Position numbers and translations under genes: made by a program | Shown: positions 14,055-21,412 of the stretch, piece by piece | How positions within the stretch are numbered: position 1 is the first letter of the stretch | How the letters are laid out: each line of letters begins with the position of its first letter | Virus record (IMG/VR): IMGVR_UViG_3300042864_000489 | Coordinates: 1 to 21,412 of that record | Direction: 5' to 3' (one strand) | From: a virus | Length of the DNA stretch: 21,412 bases | The notes under the pieces: model-generated | The model's database searches: none | Seen by the model: only the letters and a program-made list of their open reading frames with translations | Told to the model about the DNA's origin: nothing

Positions 14055-15299
14055 TTAAATGGTTACTGGCGCGATGGAGTCAAATATTCTTGTAACTTCG
14101 GCTCCGTTGCCCATCGCCAACACGTAGACTGGATCAGACGTGTAAACGATGATCTCGAAAGCACCCGTGATCGCGTTGCTGACTGTTTCGCCAACAAGTC
14201 TGCCCGTTTCGCGATGGTATGCTCTCACGGTTCTGCTGACCAGTGCGTTTTCCGCGTTCCTCACCGTCCCGGCAAGTCTGCGGCGAGTGAGGCCAGCAGC
14301 AGGCAACATGCCAAGCACGTTATGTGATGCGATCTCTTGGAAACTTTCGACCGCGTTGGTTGTCATATTGAAGATGACGAAGATTGAACTGGTGGTGGCC
14401 GCTGGCGTGAACAGTGCGACCACGCGATCATTGTCAATCCAGTTGACCTCCACGCCTTCCAGAATGTGAGCCAGCACTGGAGTCAGGTCTCGGGAAGTCA
14501 GAGTATTTGCGGCAAGGTCGTAGAGGTAGAGCCTCTGTGCCGCGACGGTGCTTTGGGTGATGATGGCGATGCGTTGCCCGTTCGGGCTGAAGCGGATCGA
14601 CCGGATCGCGGTGTTCGGGAACGTGGGAGTAGAAATCCTCGTCCACGGTGTCGCCGTGGTATTGTAGAGGTTGAAGTTCCCCGGCGCAGTCCCGCTGCTC
14701 GAGCCTCCCGTAGCAAGCCTCGTGCTGTCTGGGCTGAAATCAGCAACAGTGCAGCGGGCAAGCGGAAGCGTTGCCGGATCGACCACCTTGCTCATGTCGG
14801 AGCGGTTGTAAACGGTGACGAACGGGCTGATGTTATGGGGAACCGCGATCCATGTCCCGTTGGCCGAATATGCCACTCGACCCGCGATGCCTGTTGGCAA
14901 GGTTGAGGGGGCGGCGAGTTGCGCCAGATCGCTCAACCGATACCGAACGATCCAAGGGTTGACTTCCAAGGCAAGCGTGATTTCTGCCTCATCAGGAGAC
15001 AGCGTGATACCATAAGGCGCGGCAGGCGGGAGAACAGACGGGTTGGTGTTGTATGCGCCAGTGTTCAAGTTCAGGAACCTGATGAACGGTGTCGTGTTCT
15101 GAGCAAGGATCGCCGTTTCCCCGTTCGCCAAAACCGCCATAGACCTGAAGGGGTCGTTGAACACGCTACCCGTTCCCGGTCGAACTGTAGCCTGCGCGAA
15201 CAGCGATCTCGCCACGCGAGGATTTCCGAGGCTGACCGCGTAATAGGCATCCCGCAGAGTCGTGGCTATCAGAAACTCGCCTTTAATCAGTTTGCCCAT
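14055..15299 (-). CDS. Beta-propeller (WD40-like) virion protein with C-terminal beta-sandwich
   Basis: ATG 15299 begins five bases after the tail-tip gene ends. The 414-aa product has repeated blades of the form 'W/x-V..SPDG..A......I..YN' over about residues 40-325 (YGITLSPDEAEITLA, VADFSPDSTRLATG, SIRFSPNGQRIAII, VNWIDNDRVVALF), which is a WD40/TolB-like propeller of about six or seven blades. Residues about 340-414 look like a carboxypeptidase-regulatory-type beta-sandwich (AGTVRNAENALVSRTVRAYH, GRLVGETVSNAITGAFEI), common at the ends of phage tail proteins. It is encoded between tail tip and lysis genes, so it is probably a tail-tip or receptor-binding accessory. No enzymatic motif seen. 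Confidence 0.78.
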   Translation of the reverse strand: MGKLIKGEFLIATTLRDAYYAVSLGNPRVARSLFAQATVRPGTGSVFNDPFRSMAVLANGETAILAQNTTPFIRFLNLNTGAYNTNPSVLPPAAPYGITLSPDEAEITLALEVNPWIVRYRLSDLAQLAAPSTLPTGIAGRVAYSANGTWIAVPHNISPFVTVYNRSDMSKVVDPATLPLARCTVADFSPDSTRLATGGSSSGTAPGNFNLYNTTATPWTRISTPTFPNTAIRSIRFSPNGQRIAIITQSTVAAQRLYLYDLAANTLTSRDLTPVLAHILEGVEVNWIDNDRVVALFTPAATTSSIFVIFNMTTNAVESFQEIASHNVLGMLPAAGLTRRRLAGTVRNAENALVSRTVRAYHRETGRLVGETVSNAITGAFEIIVYTSDPVYVLAMGNGAEVTRIFDSIAPVTI

Positions 15300-15304
15300 T
15301 CGGT

Positions 15305-18157
15305 TTACCCAAGAGTGAAGTTGATGTTGTTGCCAGCGGGCGGCGCGGTGGTGTTGTCCATCACGAAGGACAGGTTAGCGCCAGAAGTCGTCGGCGTGTT
15401 GTTTATGACGATCTCACGGGCCTGCAATGATTCGATCCCGTCTCGCACGGACAATACGCGGACGCGAACGCTTGTTGCCGCGCCCATTGCCGTTCGCGGG
15501 AAGGACATGCTGGTGCCCGTCAACCCGGCATATTGAGTAATCTGAACGCCTGTCTGAGCGTTGATTAGCCGAACGGTGGTCGTTTGGCCCGCCTCTGGGG
15601 CGATGCTTGTCTCCGTCCACTCAAGCGGAACCGTTTCTTCCATGAGGCGGTTTCGGGTGGCCCATGTGACGGGCACGTTTGTCAAGTTGGAAACATCCAC
15701 GGGATCGAAATAGCTTCCAGCCACCGTCACATTCGCGGGCCGCGCAGGGCGGTAGTAGCGATTTGTCGGTGTGTATTCAGAAACTACAGCATCAGCATCC
15801 GGCAACAGGCCGACACTGGTGCGGGTTCTGAATTTATAATCCTTGGGGACGCCAATGACTGTTTGCTCGGGGTCGCCAAGTCGGGAGTCGAAAGACACGA
15901 AGCGTATGGGTGTGCTGATGGCCCACGCCTGCGGGATGGTGTCGAACAGGCCACGGCGGATCGTCCATCCGGCAGTATCATCTACGGCTGTGAACAGCGC
16001 GATTTCGTGCTGACTTTCGGGTATCCCGGTTGGACCAATGATTGCGAAGCCGCCGATCTTCGGGCCGACCCCAACCCAGTCGGAGCCGAACGTGAAACCT
16101 GTGCTGTAGGTTTCAGGCACCAAGGCTGACGTGATTAGGGTGCGGCCAGTGAAGTTGAACGTTCCGATATTCTGGAAACTCGAAGCGCCTGTAGCGTCAA
16201 CTTTCTCGGCATAACCCTCCACCCCGAAGGCATCGACTTGGTTCGTTGCGACCATGAAGCCAACGCGCGAGGCAGGGTCAACCAGTTCGCTTGCGTCTGG
16301 GTTTGACGCCTTGATGACGTAGTAGTTCGCAGTCAGATACTCGACATGGGTGGGAGGTAGCGGCGACTGAGACAGCGAGGGGGCTGCGCTGACTGGGGCA
16401 TCTTGAGCCTTCGGCTTGGTGTAACCAAACACATCTTCACTCAGGGAGACTTTGATACGGCTTGCGCCGGGGCTTCCGTAATTTACAGACATGACCCGCA
16501 TTACGAGTTCGTCTGCCCCAACTTCATCATAGGTTAACTTGCAGACTTGACCGGGGACAAGGCTCCAAGCGTCCCTGTTCACTGTGATCTCGGCAAAAGC
16601 CAGCGGGGCTACAGCGGCAGAGAGGTCTCGCGATGCCACCTGAGAAGCCAAAGCTGCGCGACGGATACCGTGGTAGTTCCGGCTGTCGGTAACGATCTCG
16701 CCCCCATTGGCAACAATCGCACCGAGGGATTGCGCGATCACCACTTCTTCTTCTTCGTTCTTCGGGTTCGTCCACGTCACGCTGATTTCGTTGGTGGTTT
16801 CAGACGGCGTGCGGCGCTTGAACGACTCCACCGTGCAGTTGCTACGGTCGAAGGTTTGGAGAAGCGACACATCATAGTCGTCTCGGATCAGGTCGAGCGT
16901 AATCAACCCAGACGCCGGATTCACAAATACCACGCCCTGAATGTGCGAGATTATGTCGCCAATGAAGTTCTGGATTTCCTCTTGTCGCGCCCACAGCATC
17001 GAAAGGCCAAAGCGTTCTGCATAAAGACGCTCTGCTGACGATTCGAAAGAAGCGTTGTCCAATGCCGTTTCAGGTAGACCCAAGCCCCACACACCGTCAA
17101 CCAAGCACTCTCTGATGATGTGGGCGGGATTCATGTCGATGTGCTGCGTCAGCGGGTAGAGGAACATGTGCTGAAGCGTTTCGTCATCCATGTTGGATAT
17201 GACCGGAACCCCATCGTTCGGGGTGTTGTCCATCTTCGCCGTTTCAGTCGTGTTGGTCAGGAACAGGTTGAAAGCGTAAGCCTGCGCCCCAGTGGCCGCG
17301 AGAGTGCTTGCGGCTGAGTTAGTGTCGGCCACCCCGTCACTGGGTTCTCCGTCAGTGAGAAACACGAAAATGCGGGGCTTGCTGCCCGCACCATTGTAGA
17401 AGGACTGCAAACCCACGACAGCATTGGAGAAGCGGGTTCCACCAGCCACTCCGATGGAGTTCACAAAGATGATAAGGTCGGTGTAATCTGCGGTCGTGCA
17501 GTTTCTCCGTTCCATCGAAACAGACGTGCCTGACCAACCGACGATGCGAACATCAAACGTGTTCGAGTAGTCGCGCATTTGCTTGAGCGCGTTCACTACT
17601 GCGGCCTTTGCCGCAACCAGTGGCGCTCCAATCATGGACAAGGAACAGTCTATGGCGAAACAGATGGCGAGGTTAGGTGTGTCCAGATCACCGGGAATAG
17701 CCGCAATGTCAGGACGCCAGCGACGGTCAATGCGCGTGACGCGGAAGTGGGTTGGCGGCACAAACGGGCTGTTGACCGACCACCTAAAGCCAGCCGTGTT
17801 GCCGGGTTGCTCCGTGAAATAGGCGGTGGAGATGCCGCGATACGCGGGGACGGTTGTAGGTGAGCCTCCGAGTTTTGAAGCACAATGTGCGTCGAGCAAC
17901 TGGGTAAACGAACCGTTCTGCCAAGCCAAGCGCCCGACTAGACCTCCTTCTTTCTTGTCACCACCAAAGAGTTCCGGCTGATTTATGGCAATGATGGACG
18001 GCGTGGGGCCGAGCGGAAACGCAACTTCTTTATCATTTACCGATATTGCGCGGAGATTCTCAACGACACCGTGACAGATTGCATATTGAATCGACGCGAA
18101 GTAGTCGGTGACGCTTATGGAACCGCCGCCCTTTTTGCCGCCGCCACCGCTACTCAT
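15305..18157 (-). CDS. J-like tail-tip protein with internal von Willebrand A domain (950 aa)
   Basis: ATG 18157 follows AAGGAG. After a Gly/Lys-rich start, residues 14-150 (VTDYFASIQYAICHG, LRAISVNDKE, THFRVTRIDRRWRPDI) and everything from about 340 (MNPAHIIRECLVDGVWGLGL, then hub-like repeats) match lambda J-type/baseplate-hub tail-tip proteins, which close the tail tube and bind the receptor. Between them, residues about 160-335 are a von Willebrand A domain: LAICFAIDCSLSM with MIDAS Asp170-x-Ser172-x-Ser174, Thr241 in GGTRFSNA and Asp269 in LTDGEPSD. All metal-binding residues are present. The insertion falls in a loop of the J fold, so the tip probably displays a metal-dependent adhesion domain. 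The C-terminal 250 residues hold fibronectin-like domains. Confidence 0.88.
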   Translation of the reverse strand: MSSGGGGKKGGGSISVTDYFASIQYAICHGVVENLRAISVNDKEVAFPLGPTPSIIAINQPELFGGDKKEGGLVGRLAWQNGSFTQLLDAHCASKLGGSPTTVPAYRGISTAYFTEQPGNTAGFRWSVNSPFVPPTHFRVTRIDRRWRPDIAAIPGDLDTPNLAICFAIDCSLSMIGAPLVAAKAAVVNALKQMRDYSNTFDVRIVGWSGTSVSMERRNCTTADYTDLIIFVNSIGVAGGTRFSNAVVGLQSFYNGAGSKPRIFVFLTDGEPSDGVADTNSAASTLAATGAQAYAFNLFLTNTTETAKMDNTPNDGVPVISNMDDETLQHMFLYPLTQHIDMNPAHIIRECLVDGVWGLGLPETALDNASFESSAERLYAERFGLSMLWARQEEIQNFIGDIISHIQGVVFVNPASGLITLDLIRDDYDVSLLQTFDRSNCTVESFKRRTPSETTNEISVTWTNPKNEEEEVVIAQSLGAIVANGGEIVTDSRNYHGIRRAALASQVASRDLSAAVAPLAFAEITVNRDAWSLVPGQVCKLTYDEVGADELVMRVMSVNYGSPGASRIKVSLSEDVFGYTKPKAQDAPVSAAPSLSQSPLPPTHVEYLTANYYVIKASNPDASELVDPASRVGFMVATNQVDAFGVEGYAEKVDATGASSFQNIGTFNFTGRTLITSALVPETYSTGFTFGSDWVGVGPKIGGFAIIGPTGIPESQHEIALFTAVDDTAGWTIRRGLFDTIPQAWAISTPIRFVSFDSRLGDPEQTVIGVPKDYKFRTRTSVGLLPDADAVVSEYTPTNRYYRPARPANVTVAGSYFDPVDVSNLTNVPVTWATRNRLMEETVPLEWTETSIAPEAGQTTTVRLINAQTGVQITQYAGLTGTSMSFPRTAMGAATSVRVRVLSVRDGIESLQAREIVINNTPTTSGANLSFVMDNTTAPPAGNNINFTLG

Positions 18158-18350
18158 TCACGCGCTCCTTGGCTTTTGCGAGAACCCTCTTGGCGAAGGC
18201 ATCGTCCATCGTCTCTACATCTTCGGCAGGGATGCCATTCTTGACGATCTCTTTGAAATCGTATCCGTTCTGCTCTGCCCACGTTTTCAATCCGGGGATT
18301 ATGCAGTAGCCCGCTGCTTTCACATCTCTTGCAGTGATTATCAGGCTCAT
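18150..18350 (-). CDS. Small conserved tail-module protein (66 aa)
   Basis: ATG 18350 lies nine bases after GGAG and overlaps the previous stop (ATGA); its end overlaps the J-like gene by eight bases. The sequence (ITARDVKAAGYCIIPGLKTW, then NGYDFKEIVKNGIPAEDVET and ALAKRVL-type ending) has the 'G...W....G.....F...GI.A..L...D.....' pattern of a small protein often encoded directly before J-like genes. Whether it is structural or a chaperone is not known. Position, size and pattern are the evidence. Confidence 0.7.
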   Translation of the reverse strand: MSLIITARDVKAAGYCIIPGLKTWAEQNGYDFKEIVKNGIPAEDVETMDDAFAKRVLAKAKERVNE

Positions 18351-18592
18351 GCAGGGATGCTCCGCGTGAACTGGCCCTTGTCACGAACGTCGATAATGTT
18401 GGCGCTCTTGACAGTCATGGTTCCGAACACCACAGGAATCGGTCGCCCCGCTTCTGCGGTAGGTGCTTCGAGGTCTTTCGCAGCTTCAGGCTTCTGCTGC
18501 TTTGGCTTCGGCATGATGGCATACGAAATGACCATCAATGCCAGACCTATGGCAAGCTGAATAAAGAATGATGCGAGGAACGGCAGGGGCAT
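18347..18592 (-). CDS. Tail assembly protein with N-terminal membrane helix (81 aa)
   Basis: ATG 18592 overlaps the previous stop. Residues 5-27 are a hydrophobic helix (FLASFFIQLAIGLALMVISY), then a Lys/Pro/Glu linker, then AGRPIPVVFGTMTVKSANII, a segment typical of small tail-tip proteins that precede or form the beginning of J-like proteins. It may be an assembly factor at the tail tip or a periplasm-crossing component; lambda gpI occupies a comparable place, but no homology is claimed. Confidence 0.7.
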   Translation of the reverse strand: MPLPFLASFFIQLAIGLALMVISYAIMPKPKQQKPEAAKDLEAPTAEAGRPIPVVFGTMTVKSANIIDVRDKGQFTRSIPA

Positions 18593-19425
18593 CAGAAGAA
18601 CCTTGTATTGTAGCCTGTAGGATTCTTGATTGGGATGTAAGGTTGCCCGCCAAAGTTGACTACATTGTTATGCAGATCGCGGCATCCCGTCAAGGTGTGC
18701 GGGCATCCGGCATAGACGAACATCTGTGTTCCAAGCGTCAAACCAGTGGTCGCACCAATAATGAGATCATCTTCGGTTGCACCAGTGTTCAGGATCGTCC
18801 TGACCTGTGTGTTTCCAGCGGCGTCAGTCCACTCGACATAGCCTCCAATGTATGACGACTTTGCTGTTGTGGCGTTCCAGCCAGAGGGCATCCGCGCATA
18901 GTTAGCGCCGATCAGAGTGGGAATGACCGTGCGCTTCAGCGTTTCCTTGTTCGCCTTGCATGTGCGCTGATCGTAAAGGACGTGCGGGCAACCAAGCATG
19001 TAGAAGCGGCGTAGACCGGGGCGGGCCAGAATGGAGTCCAGAGGTTCGGCCACAATCTTCGGGTTCGGGCCTTCCCAGTTCACGTTCTTGATGACCCCGC
19101 TCCACGCTGCCTTGTAGTCTTTGGTCGGATCATCAACGTGACCTTGGTAGATCACAATGCCAATCTTACCCTGCGGCGGGTTGGTGGCATACATCTTGAC
19201 GATCTCGGCACTCGGGGTGATGTCGATCACCATTTCCTTTTTGTCGAGGGTGCCGGAAGCAACAATCTCGGATCGACCAATCGGAATTGGTTTGTAGACT
19301 TTCCCGCCAAACGTGATTTCTACGTCAGAGTCCGTGTAGGCAAGGTGGCTGTTCCCCCATTCGATTAGAAACAGGGAGGCCGGAATACCGTCCTGACGGG
19401 ACATCTCGTATTGAGCGAAACTCAT
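18592..19425 (-). CDS. BR0599/DUF2163-type tail hub protein with four cysteines (277 aa)
   Basis: ATG 19425 follows GGAGG by four bases; the open frame starts at 19482, but the upstream part lacks such a site. The N-terminal half (LIEWGNSHLAYTDSDVEITF, YKPIPI, IDITPSAEIV) and C-terminal half match the phage family named after BR0599. Four Cys occur in two similar units: GCPHVLYDQRTC (Cys146, Cys156) and GCPHTLTGC (Cys241, Cys248), followed by NFGGQPYIP. In lambda gpL and in the gene-transfer-agent hub, four Cys in equivalent parts hold an iron-sulfur cluster, so the same is likely here. It caps the tail tube and carries the J-like protein. Confidence 0.85.
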   Translation of the reverse strand: MSFAQYEMSRQDGIPASLFLIEWGNSHLAYTDSDVEITFGGKVYKPIPIGRSEIVASGTLDKKEMVIDITPSAEIVKMYATNPPQGKIGIVIYQGHVDDPTKDYKAAWSGVIKNVNWEGPNPKIVAEPLDSILARPGLRRFYMLGCPHVLYDQRTCKANKETLKRTVIPTLIGANYARMPSGWNATTAKSSYIGGYVEWTDAAGNTQVRTILNTGATEDDLIIGATTGLTLGTQMFVYAGCPHTLTGCRDLHNNVVNFGGQPYIPIKNPTGYNTRFF

Positions 19426-20537
19426 GCGTCCTCCAAGGATCGAAGTGTCATATTGCAGCGCCCCGTGGTATCCGTGATCCAATTAATCTGCAACGTGTCA
19501 GTCTCGAAGCGGCAACGCAGCAGCCATCTGACTGAAAGCACATTCTCAGCAGCAATAGTGGGTAAGGAAGATGAAAGCGTGAACACCGAGTTCTGCCCGC
19601 TTCGGGAGACGCCGCTTATCCTGCGATTGTAGGTGCCCGCCGTGGTTTCAATTCGGACGCTGCGGTATGTGGGATCATCCGAATACATTACGCTAGGTTC
19701 AAGGCCGCTGATCGTCAACGCCGTTCCGCCAATGCCGCCAGCCGCGAAAAGCGTGGTCATTGGATCGGGGACGTAGAATGACCGCTGACTGCCGCGCGAT
19801 CTGGCGAACAAGCCCCGCACTGCGTTTTCCGTAGCTTCATCCCTGAGCAAATATTCCATTTCGATCAGACGGGCGGTCGTGTTTTCAGGAAGATAGAAAT
19901 CGGTCACGCCGCGCTGGTAATCGAATATGTCTGCTGCCTGCTGAAAGCTGATGTTCGGCGGGGAAGCCCAGTTCGGATTTAGAGTGAACAGTTCAGCGCC
20001 ATTGAAGGTCTGCGGTGTGGCACCGTAGTCCTTGGAGGGGACGTAATAAGTAGGGTCTGCCGCAACACGCAGCCGCATAACTCCGACTCTATCCGTTGTG
20101 CCGCTGACGGAGATACCACCTTCAAATCGACCGATGACGTTCTGTTCGTCAGTCCTGCCACGGTCTATCAGGGTTTCACGTCTGGGATTCGGGAAGATAA
20201 AGCGTCCAGCAGCCTCACGCGACAGGCGGCGTTCTGCGGTGCGGAGGTCTTCGCCAAACAGCACACTACGCCACTCGTAAGAGTGACGTGGCTTTACCCG
20301 CTGCGCGATGCGCTGTTCAGTGCCATCCCGTGAGCGAATGATCTCTGTTCGATAGGAGACTTCTTCAACGAATCCTGCGGACCAGTCTGGATTAACATTC
20401 CAGACTGTGTAAGGCGAGATCGCTACAGCAGGGATACCTAGAATGGGTGCGGGCGTCACTAGGACGGAAGGGACAAGCAGGGAAAACCCCATACCTGTCC
20501 CTGCTGCATTGGATATGAATGGCGCGGAGCCAAACAT
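19422..20537 (-). CDS. Distal-tail-like protein (371 aa)
   Basis: ATG 20537 overlaps the previous stop (TAATG); its own stop overlaps the hub start (ATGA). The N-terminal region (DWSAGFVEEVSYRTEIIRSR..TEQRIAQRVKPR and then R-S-V-L) and a later unit (QRGVTDFYLPENTTARLIEM) have the beta-galectin-like pattern of distal tail proteins of siphoviruses and gene transfer agents (DUF2460 neighbourhood). Such proteins form a hexameric ring between the tube and the hub. Its place just before the hub gene agrees. A direct DUF2460 match cannot be confirmed by eye, so the family name is less certain than the role. Confidence 0.7.
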   Translation of the reverse strand: MFGSAPFISNAAGTGMGFSLLVPSVLVTPAPILGIPAVAISPYTVWNVNPDWSAGFVEEVSYRTEIIRSRDGTEQRIAQRVKPRHSYEWRSVLFGEDLRTAERRLSREAAGRFIFPNPRRETLIDRGRTDEQNVIGRFEGGISVSGTTDRVGVMRLRVAADPTYYVPSKDYGATPQTFNGAELFTLNPNWASPPNISFQQAADIFDYQRGVTDFYLPENTTARLIEMEYLLRDEATENAVRGLFARSRGSQRSFYVPDPMTTLFAAGGIGGTALTISGLEPSVMYSDDPTYRSVRIETTAGTYNRRISGVSRSGQNSVFTLSSSLPTIAAENVLSVRWLLRCRFETDTLQINWITDTTGRCNMTLRSLEDA

Positions 20538-20989
20538 TACTCAGGCCACTCAATCTCAGGCAAACTCGCCACCAGTTCAGCAATCGTCGGCACAGGTTTC
20601 GTCCCTGCCTGAATTTCCGCAAATTCGGCCAGAGCAAACGACCACACTTGATCACGCCAAGCGACGAACACCTGCGCCTGTTCAGCCCATTCGGGGATGG
20701 TGGAACTGACATACCCCGCAAGCGACCATGCGTTGTCGTAGTTTTTGGCCTGCGCCACAGCGTCCACATGGTTGCGGATGGCGGCGGTGAAGTCGGCTTG
20801 GTTTGGGGCGGGAAGCGGCGCGGCAACGTATGGGGCGGGGTTCATTTCCAGCGCAGCGGCGTAGATGGCGCGACCGTGTTCTTCCGCATCATCCGGCGAT
20901 GCAGTGAATGGTATCCAGCCGAATTGCGGGTGTTCAATCTCGCAGTCGATGTTGCCAGTGGCGGTGTAGATCGGGTTGCGAATTTGCAT
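20537..20989 (-). CDS. Tail fibre assembly chaperone-like protein (150 aa)
   Basis: ATG 20989 is eight bases after GAGG; the adjacent GTG 20992 is a second choice. The N-terminus (RNPIYTATGNIDCEIEHPQF, then GWIPFTASPDDAEEHGRAIY) resembles short tail-fibre assembly proteins that begin with a copy of the fibre's host-facing region. The rest is helical (AIRNHVDAVAQAKNYDNAWS, EWAEQAQVFVAWRDQVWSFA) with a final TIAELVASLPEIEWPE. It directly follows the fibre gene, as Tfa-type chaperones do. Function is inferred from this pairing and the helical pattern. Confidence 0.65.
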   Translation of the reverse strand: MQIRNPIYTATGNIDCEIEHPQFGWIPFTASPDDAEEHGRAIYAAALEMNPAPYVAAPLPAPNQADFTAAIRNHVDAVAQAKNYDNAWSLAGYVSSTIPEWAEQAQVFVAWRDQVWSFALAEFAEIQAGTKPVPTIAELVASLPEIEWPE

Positions 20990-21412
20990 CACGAAATCCT
21001 CAGAAAAAGTGTGGTGCGATCATCGGGGGCAAAGTAGGATGCAAACGAGAGCCCCATGCAGCGCCATGTTCCAGATGGCGTAACCCCCGCAGTGCCAGTC
21101 CCCGATGCTGCCACGTAGCGCAGATTGCTTCCGGCAACTAAATCCCCGATGTTAATGTTTGCGCCCACACCTTCGTTCATGAGCAGTGCATAGGTGCCGA
21201 CACTCCCTGCGGGCTGCGCGGCGATGGTTCCCATCGTGTTTGCCCAAGTCGGAACTTCCTGCCGTAGGGCAATAAGACCCAGCGTTGTTGCGTCAATCTG
21301 AAGCAGCGCCCCGCCCTCACTTTCTTGCCACCCAATGCGAACCTTGTTGGTTCCCATATTGGCCCCACCGCCCTGCTCAACAGGCGTGAAGCCGATTGCA
21401 CCCTGCACCTGC
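20989..21412 (-). CDS. Tail fibre protein, C-terminal part (start outside window)
   Basis: The frame is open at the right edge, so only the last 140 residues are present. GAIGFTPVEQGGG, then GTNKVRIGWQ, is the repeat-type module common near the ends of phage tail fibres. The final part, TYALLMNEGVGANINIGDLV, then GSNLRYVAASG and SGTWRCMG, to LFLRIS, is a typical fibre C-terminal head domain. This tip is expected to contact the host receptor. Its stop overlaps the chaperone start (TGATG), which supports a fibre/chaperone pair. Confidence 0.75.
   Translation of the reverse strand, partial: QVQGAIGFTPVEQGGGANMGTNKVRIGWQESEGGALLQIDATTLGLIALRQEVPTWANTMGTIAAQPAGSVGTYALLMNEGVGANINIGDLVAGSNLRYVAASGTGTAGVTPSGTWRCMGLSFASYFAPDDRTTLFLRIS

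Follow-up and report, generated by a model that had tools for sequence, protein, structure and literature searches.

The window analysed here is a virus record of 21,412 bases (IMG/VR IMGVR_UViG_3300042864_000489), and the tail genes described below all lie on its minus strand (Table 1). They occur in the order distal tail protein, upper baseplate protein, two small genes and a J-like hub, as in annotated relatives, and the order distal tail, upper baseplate, hub is also common to phage JBD30 (PMC11445458). The gene for the upper baseplate protein likely starts at an ATG near 19425. The distal tail gene is preceded by the C-terminal part of a tail fibre-like protein, in the position that the pilus-binding fibre genes occupy in JBD30. 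On the other side of the hub lies a gene (P0004) which possibly encodes a receptor-binding protein; its beta-propeller call is weak and no relatives of it were found in IMG/VR. A contig 99% identical to the window (L002) differs from it in 14 of 811 codons of the hub gene, all at or beyond residue 420 and none within the domain discussed below.

Table 1. Features of the tail-tip region of the window, with the VWA-bearing distal tail proteins of other loci in the last row
Feature	Position	Strand	Basis or remark
C-terminal part of tail fibre-like protein, cut by the window edge	20989..21411	-	PHROG 16867 positions 496-631 of 631; frame open at end
Distal tail protein (PHROG 1082 / DUF2460-like), no VWA in the window phage	19422..20537	-	PHROG E 7.9e-57
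Upper baseplate protein (BR0599 / Gp84_N), no VWA in the window phage	18592..19482	-	Pfam, PHROG 778
Small gene, 81 aa, PHROG 1180 (annotated tail assembly chaperone)	18347..18592	-	PHROG E 5.6e-24
Small gene before hub, 66 aa, PHROG 1196 (annotated tail assembly chaperone)	18150..18350	-	PHROG E 3.4e-16
Baseplate hub (J-like, JBD30 gp53/Chi type), 950 aa	15305..18157	-	Phage-tail_3; PHROG 1101 E 1.9e-188; 8rk3/8vjh fold
VWA domain, hub residues 160-338	17144..17680	-	Pfam, confident model, VWA structure matches
MIDAS motif 1, D170-x-S172-x-S174	17636..17650	-	Invariant in 24-sequence alignment
MIDAS Thr, T241	17435..17437	-	Invariant in 24-sequence alignment; one Glu exception (L146) in wider set
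MIDAS Asp, D269 (TDGxP)	17351..17353	-	Present in 145/145 domain hits
Second motif conserved in the tail VWA subfamily, DNTPNDGVP at residues 310-318	17204..17230	-	Conserved at about MIDAS level
Phage-tail_3 (PF13550) core of hub, residues 391-557	16487..16987	-	Pfam E 5.6e-11
Gene after hub (P0004), candidate receptor-binding partner	14055..15299	-	Weak Pfam beta-propeller/WD40; C-terminus PHROG 19311
Distal tail proteins with VWA in other loci	L036:2495-4186, L167:855-2558, L170:2497-4194, L175:4416-6167		

The first-pass annotation had described a J-like protein of the tail tip with a complete von Willebrand factor type A (VWA) domain at residues of about 160-335, carrying the DxSxS, Thr and Asp of the metal site. 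Both parts of this description were borne out. Besides its profile matches, the protein has the full-length fold of known tail-tip hubs: a whole-hub AlphaFold2 model (44 alignment rows, mean pLDDT 86.1) compared with the PDB by VIA-align matched the JBD30 hub gp53 (8rk3, Z 31.6) and the Chi tail tip (8vjh, Z 31.4), followed by lambda J-type tips. By homology, the window protein is identified as the presumably trimeric baseplate hub of a siphophage whose tail tip is of the JBD30/Chi type.

The VWA domain was found at the predicted coordinates. PF00092 matched residues 165-314 (E 3e-7, 31.3 bits against a cut-off of 23.8), and in the model this stretch was mostly at pLDDT 80-97 with the strand and helix order of a VWA (Rossmann-like) fold. 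VWA structures matched the model at Z of about 20-21 and 2.0-2.5 A, including 4fx5 (Z 21.4, 2.3 A, 177 residues) and the Aeromonas adhesin vWFA 9das (Z 20.8, 2.0 A, 172 residues). ANTXR2, the integrin alphaM I domain and others matched as well, nearly all on model residues of about 154-341. All five residues of the metal site (MIDAS) are present. The fold, the profile match and the conservation of the domain rule out chance or artefact as the origin of the VWA call.

Comparison with related hubs established that the domain is an insertion. The hubs of JBD30 and Chi, whose fold resembles that of the window protein over its whole length, contain no VWA, and the site is a short turn; in phmmer searches they matched on both sides of the VWA and skipped the domain itself. 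Within the genus Pamexvirus, the PaMx28 hub has the VWA and the PaMx74 hub does not, a clean presence and absence of exactly this block. In the hub model, short strands at residues 153-155 and 340-342 bracket the VWA, which would be expected if a turn had been opened by the insertion.

The search for J-like proteins with and without the VWA recovered both kinds and revealed a recurrent insertion site. In a survey of 218 hubs, a sample biased towards the VWA, the slot held a VWA in 125, an empty or short turn in 38, a small insert in 11, and a larger insert of another kind in 44, the last falling into 15 sequence clusters. The flanks of the slot are well conserved and alike across very different inserts. 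This site in the hub is thus a hotspot where relatives hold nothing or quite different domains. Since it tolerates inserts differing greatly in size and sequence, the VWA would be exposed on the hub surface. Loci with unrelated inserts, from about 15 clusters, include L021, L225, L202, L245, L269, L205, L022, L206, L015 and L068. None of the alternative inserts was named by Pfam, with nothing convincing among the matches. A lectin-like fold was considered for one cluster (L016/L194) and dropped, because the pLDDT of its model was low (55.7) and Foldseek returned nothing at E <0.1. Because Pfam names none of the inserts and the sole attempted model was poor, they do not prove that the site is an adhesion slot.

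The metal site is the most strictly kept part of the domain, together with one further motif. A total of 145 VWA domain hits was collected, two of which were split so that their MIDAS columns were not fully readable. All five MIDAS residues were intact in 141 of the remaining 143, the two exceptions being one S-to-T and one T-to-E substitution (L146), and for this reason the MIDAS is clearly kept by selection in the tail VWA subfamily. In an alignment of 24 diverse sequences, which are 24-40% identical to the window and related to one another, so that the figures are descriptive, the five MIDAS columns were all among the 12 of 197 columns that were invariant (median column conservation 46%). 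Such strict conservation across a family this divergent is consistent with metal-dependent ligand binding. Among 31 representatives with less than 60% identity, the MIDAS and the motif DNTPxDGVP (residues 310-318) made up the most conserved columns, and in each of the three proteins found to carry the domain (see below) DNTPxDGVP was kept at roughly the level of the MIDAS. This motif, which may serve metal binding, docking or the fold, was absent in the aligned parts of host chromosomal VWAs.

Further searches examined how widely the domain is distributed. In tblastn searches, the whole hub matched 751 phage records and the N-terminal 400 residues of the VWA-less PaMx74 hub matched 752. Five VWA queries combined matched 27 records, of which 20 have the VWA in the hub and 7 are from Rhodobacter phages; in RcSpartan, the only one of these 7 that was read, the VWA lies in the distal tail protein. 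The hub VWA is therefore found in a minority of hub-bearing isolate records, about 3% (20/~752), which is a lower bound at this search sensitivity. These 20 isolate records are of Bordetella, Xanthomonas, Stenotrophomonas, Pseudomonas, Variovorax and Erythrobacter phages. With IMG/VR and GTDB genomes added to the phage records, 175 loci with the hub core were collected (window included), 134 of them with a VWA, a set biased towards the domain since the query carried one. The same VWA subfamily occupies the same hub site in more than 100 viral or prophage loci, and the prophage hosts are mainly Rhodobacterales and Gammaproteobacteria.

The isolates that share the hub family, insertion site and VWA subfamily of the window comprise Bordetella phages MW2, CN1, CN2 and FP1, Xanthomonas phages Elanor and Mallos, Stenotrophomonas phages Bhz59 and QH3, PaMx28, Erythrobacter phages ZS04 and R6L, and Variovorax phages V45iii and BAPIC_0004. 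Their hubs are about 30% identical to the window hub, and like it have the MIDAS and DNTPxDGVP intact. In several of them, MW2 and PaMx28 included, the upper baseplate protein has a VWA as well, unlike that of the window phage.

Two further baseplate proteins were found to carry the same VWA. It is present in the upper baseplate protein at seven loci (L003, L004, L009, L013, L014, L048 and L113) and in the distal tail protein at five (L036, L157, L167, L170 and RcSpartan, L175). At L167 and L170 the distal tail protein has the VWA and the hub itself does not. The first-pass annotation had called the insertion an unusual evolutionary step; this view could not be upheld, given the same VWA at the same site in many phages, other domains there in other phages, and the two additional carriers. 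The anatomy of the VWA and its recurrence can be regarded as practically certain. In RcCWillis (L010:3017-5485), the upper baseplate protein has a GTA TIM-barrel domain ahead of BR0599, where others have the VWA. In Bordetella phage CN1 (KY000221.1 53710-54294), the upper-baseplate VWA gene is annotated as 'FAD/FMN-containing dehydrogenase', probably a misannotation.

In a tree of the VWA domains, one clade (98/91) unites the upper-baseplate copies with the hub copies from the PaMx28-like group, and five of the six copies from upper baseplate proteins cluster together (100/99), a pattern suggestive of an ancient duplication between adjacent genes. Copies from distal tail proteins occupy two positions, one of them within a hub clade (96/92). 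The window VWA is on a long branch and its exact position is unsure. Recent capture of a host VWA was not supported: with a tail-VWA profile, the tail copies scored 210-248 bits and VWAs elsewhere in 12 host genomes scored at most 40. The nearest bacterial relatives of solved structure by sequence are the vWFA domains of the adhesin LapA (9no5, E 3e-17) and of an Aeromonas adhesin (9das). These share the MIDAS fold with the window, and LapA keeps a DG near the position of DNTPxDGV, but they belong to large cell-surface adhesins and not to phage structural proteins. The tail VWA thus seems to have been a phage lineage of its own for a long time, related to adhesins only distantly.

Based on these observations, the VWA is probably an interchangeable, metal-dependent accessory adhesion module, which would bind a ligand on the host. 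A ligand role is suggested by the selected MIDAS, the permissive slot, the location at the tail tip, and precedents in other phage-derived systems. In 'evolved' Dit and Tal proteins of Gram-positive siphophages, carbohydrate modules are inserted in baseplate proteins (PMC7291167). The arrangement is comparable, in that an accessory module interrupts a loop of a baseplate protein that is otherwise conserved, and the phage has a dedicated receptor-binding protein as well; the slot survey and the PaMx28/PaMx74 pair place the window hub alongside them in this respect. The window insert is a VWA, not a carbohydrate-binding module, and comes from different phages, so the hub is a parallel case rather than a member of that class. 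VWA is also listed among the tail-fibre domains of eCIS (PMC12923769), a phage-tail-derived adhesion device; there it is in contractile-injection fibres instead of the hub, and the likeness is one of description.

In the proposed mechanism, a phage-tail-specific VWA would interrupt a turn on the hub surface, in the way that the I domain interrupts the integrin alpha propeller. Three copies, one per hub subunit, would surround the tail tip, and each MIDAS with its divalent metal may engage an acidic residue of a bacterial surface protein. The VWA would then allow the phage to hold on reversibly, as an aid to its dedicated tail fibres and to the receptor-binding protein of the tip. The hub site would be an adhesion-module slot which phages fill, empty or refill by recombination. 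The literature searched shows no receptor for any phage that bears the VWA. The integrin alpha I domain is likewise an inserted VWA with a MIDAS and superimposes on the window domain at 2.5-2.8 A over about 175 residues (14-18% identity); however, it is eukaryotic and inserted in a beta-propeller, so the VWA alone is common to both and the hub does not have the architecture of an integrin subunit. An integrin-like pairing of VWA and propeller was considered for P0004, whose propeller call is weak and for which no relatives were found. A broader proposal, put forward tentatively, is that the phage-specific VWA may be a transferable adhesion cassette that spread across the three carrier proteins in Gram-negative siphophages, with two copies in some phages. 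The tail tip might thereby gain several grips of the integrin kind, dependent on metal, on a bacterial surface protein so far not recognised as a receptor, with the hub site as a general slot exchanged between phages.

The main rival to adhesion is docking inside the virion, an explanation considered unlikely. MIDAS sites also serve intramolecular and intersubunit ligands, as in the integrin alpha-I and beta-I domains, and a conserved MIDAS in the hub could dock another virion protein by taking an acidic residue of a tail fibre, of the tip receptor-binding protein or of the upper baseplate, thereby locking or gating the baseplate. The strictly conserved DNTPxDGVP motif could be the docking surface. 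Moreover, the VWA is found in three contacting baseplate proteins, whose JBD30 counterparts together keep the fibres in place (PMC11445458). However, PaMx74, JBD30 and Chi have the same neighbours and no VWA, which argues that the domain is not generally needed for assembly. The downstream tip gene varies among VWA carriers, and the slot is also used by other, unrelated inserts.

The first-pass annotation had named a pilus as the possible ligand of the adhesion module, and binding to type IV pili in particular is an improbable reading. VWA domains are indeed known from pilus tips and from further adhesins (e.g., Mfa5), and the hub relatives include phages that use a pilus or flagellum (JBD30 and Chi); among Pamexviruses, AXL1 and DLP4 depend on the type IV pilus (PMC9206674, PMC6469090). 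For the Bordetella VWA phages, pili have only been suggested, because their sibling LK3, the fifth Vojvodinavirus, resembles a Pseudomonas phage that uses pili (PMC8471281). The idea is weakened because JBD30 binds the pilus through separate fibres, gp47 and gp48, and its hub has no VWA (PMC11445458). Furthermore, no Stenotrophomonas Pamexvirus, the pilus-dependent group, was among the phage-record matches to the five VWA queries (judged by search match), and only the small fraction of hub-bearing isolates noted above has a hub VWA. Least probable is a decorative VWA whose metal merely stabilises the fold, as has been thought of some baseplate metal sites (JBD30 upper baseplate, PMC11445458) and as hubs tolerant of many inserts would allow, since three non-contiguous MIDAS loops kept at about 100% against the median column exceed what fold stability alone would lead one to expect, and repeated acquisition suggests a benefit.

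Accessory baseplate modules have been documented mainly as carbohydrate-binding domains of Gram-positive phages. If the VWA acts as an accessory adhesion module, a recurrent, MIDAS-conserved domain in Gram-negative siphophages would be their protein-binding counterpart. It would also offer a simple experimental handle, through chelation and a single Asp mutation. Exchange of domains at the hub site could explain differences in adsorption among close relatives, and recognition of the slot could improve the annotation of many genes now labelled 'tail protein'. Literature searches, which covered a minority of subscription papers, found none that describes a siphophage hub with a VWA, and the VWA proteins in papers on halovirus, T4-like and Vi01-like phages are not presented there as tail hubs. 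Similar proteins were already present in GenBank, and one VWA-bearing hub (KY000218) is annotated there as 'von Willebrand factor type A', but no published account of the module, the three proteins that carry it or the hub slot was found. Elsewhere in the window, an open reading frame on the plus strand (1205-2038) contains three copies of the repeated peptide AAMAKVMLARD.
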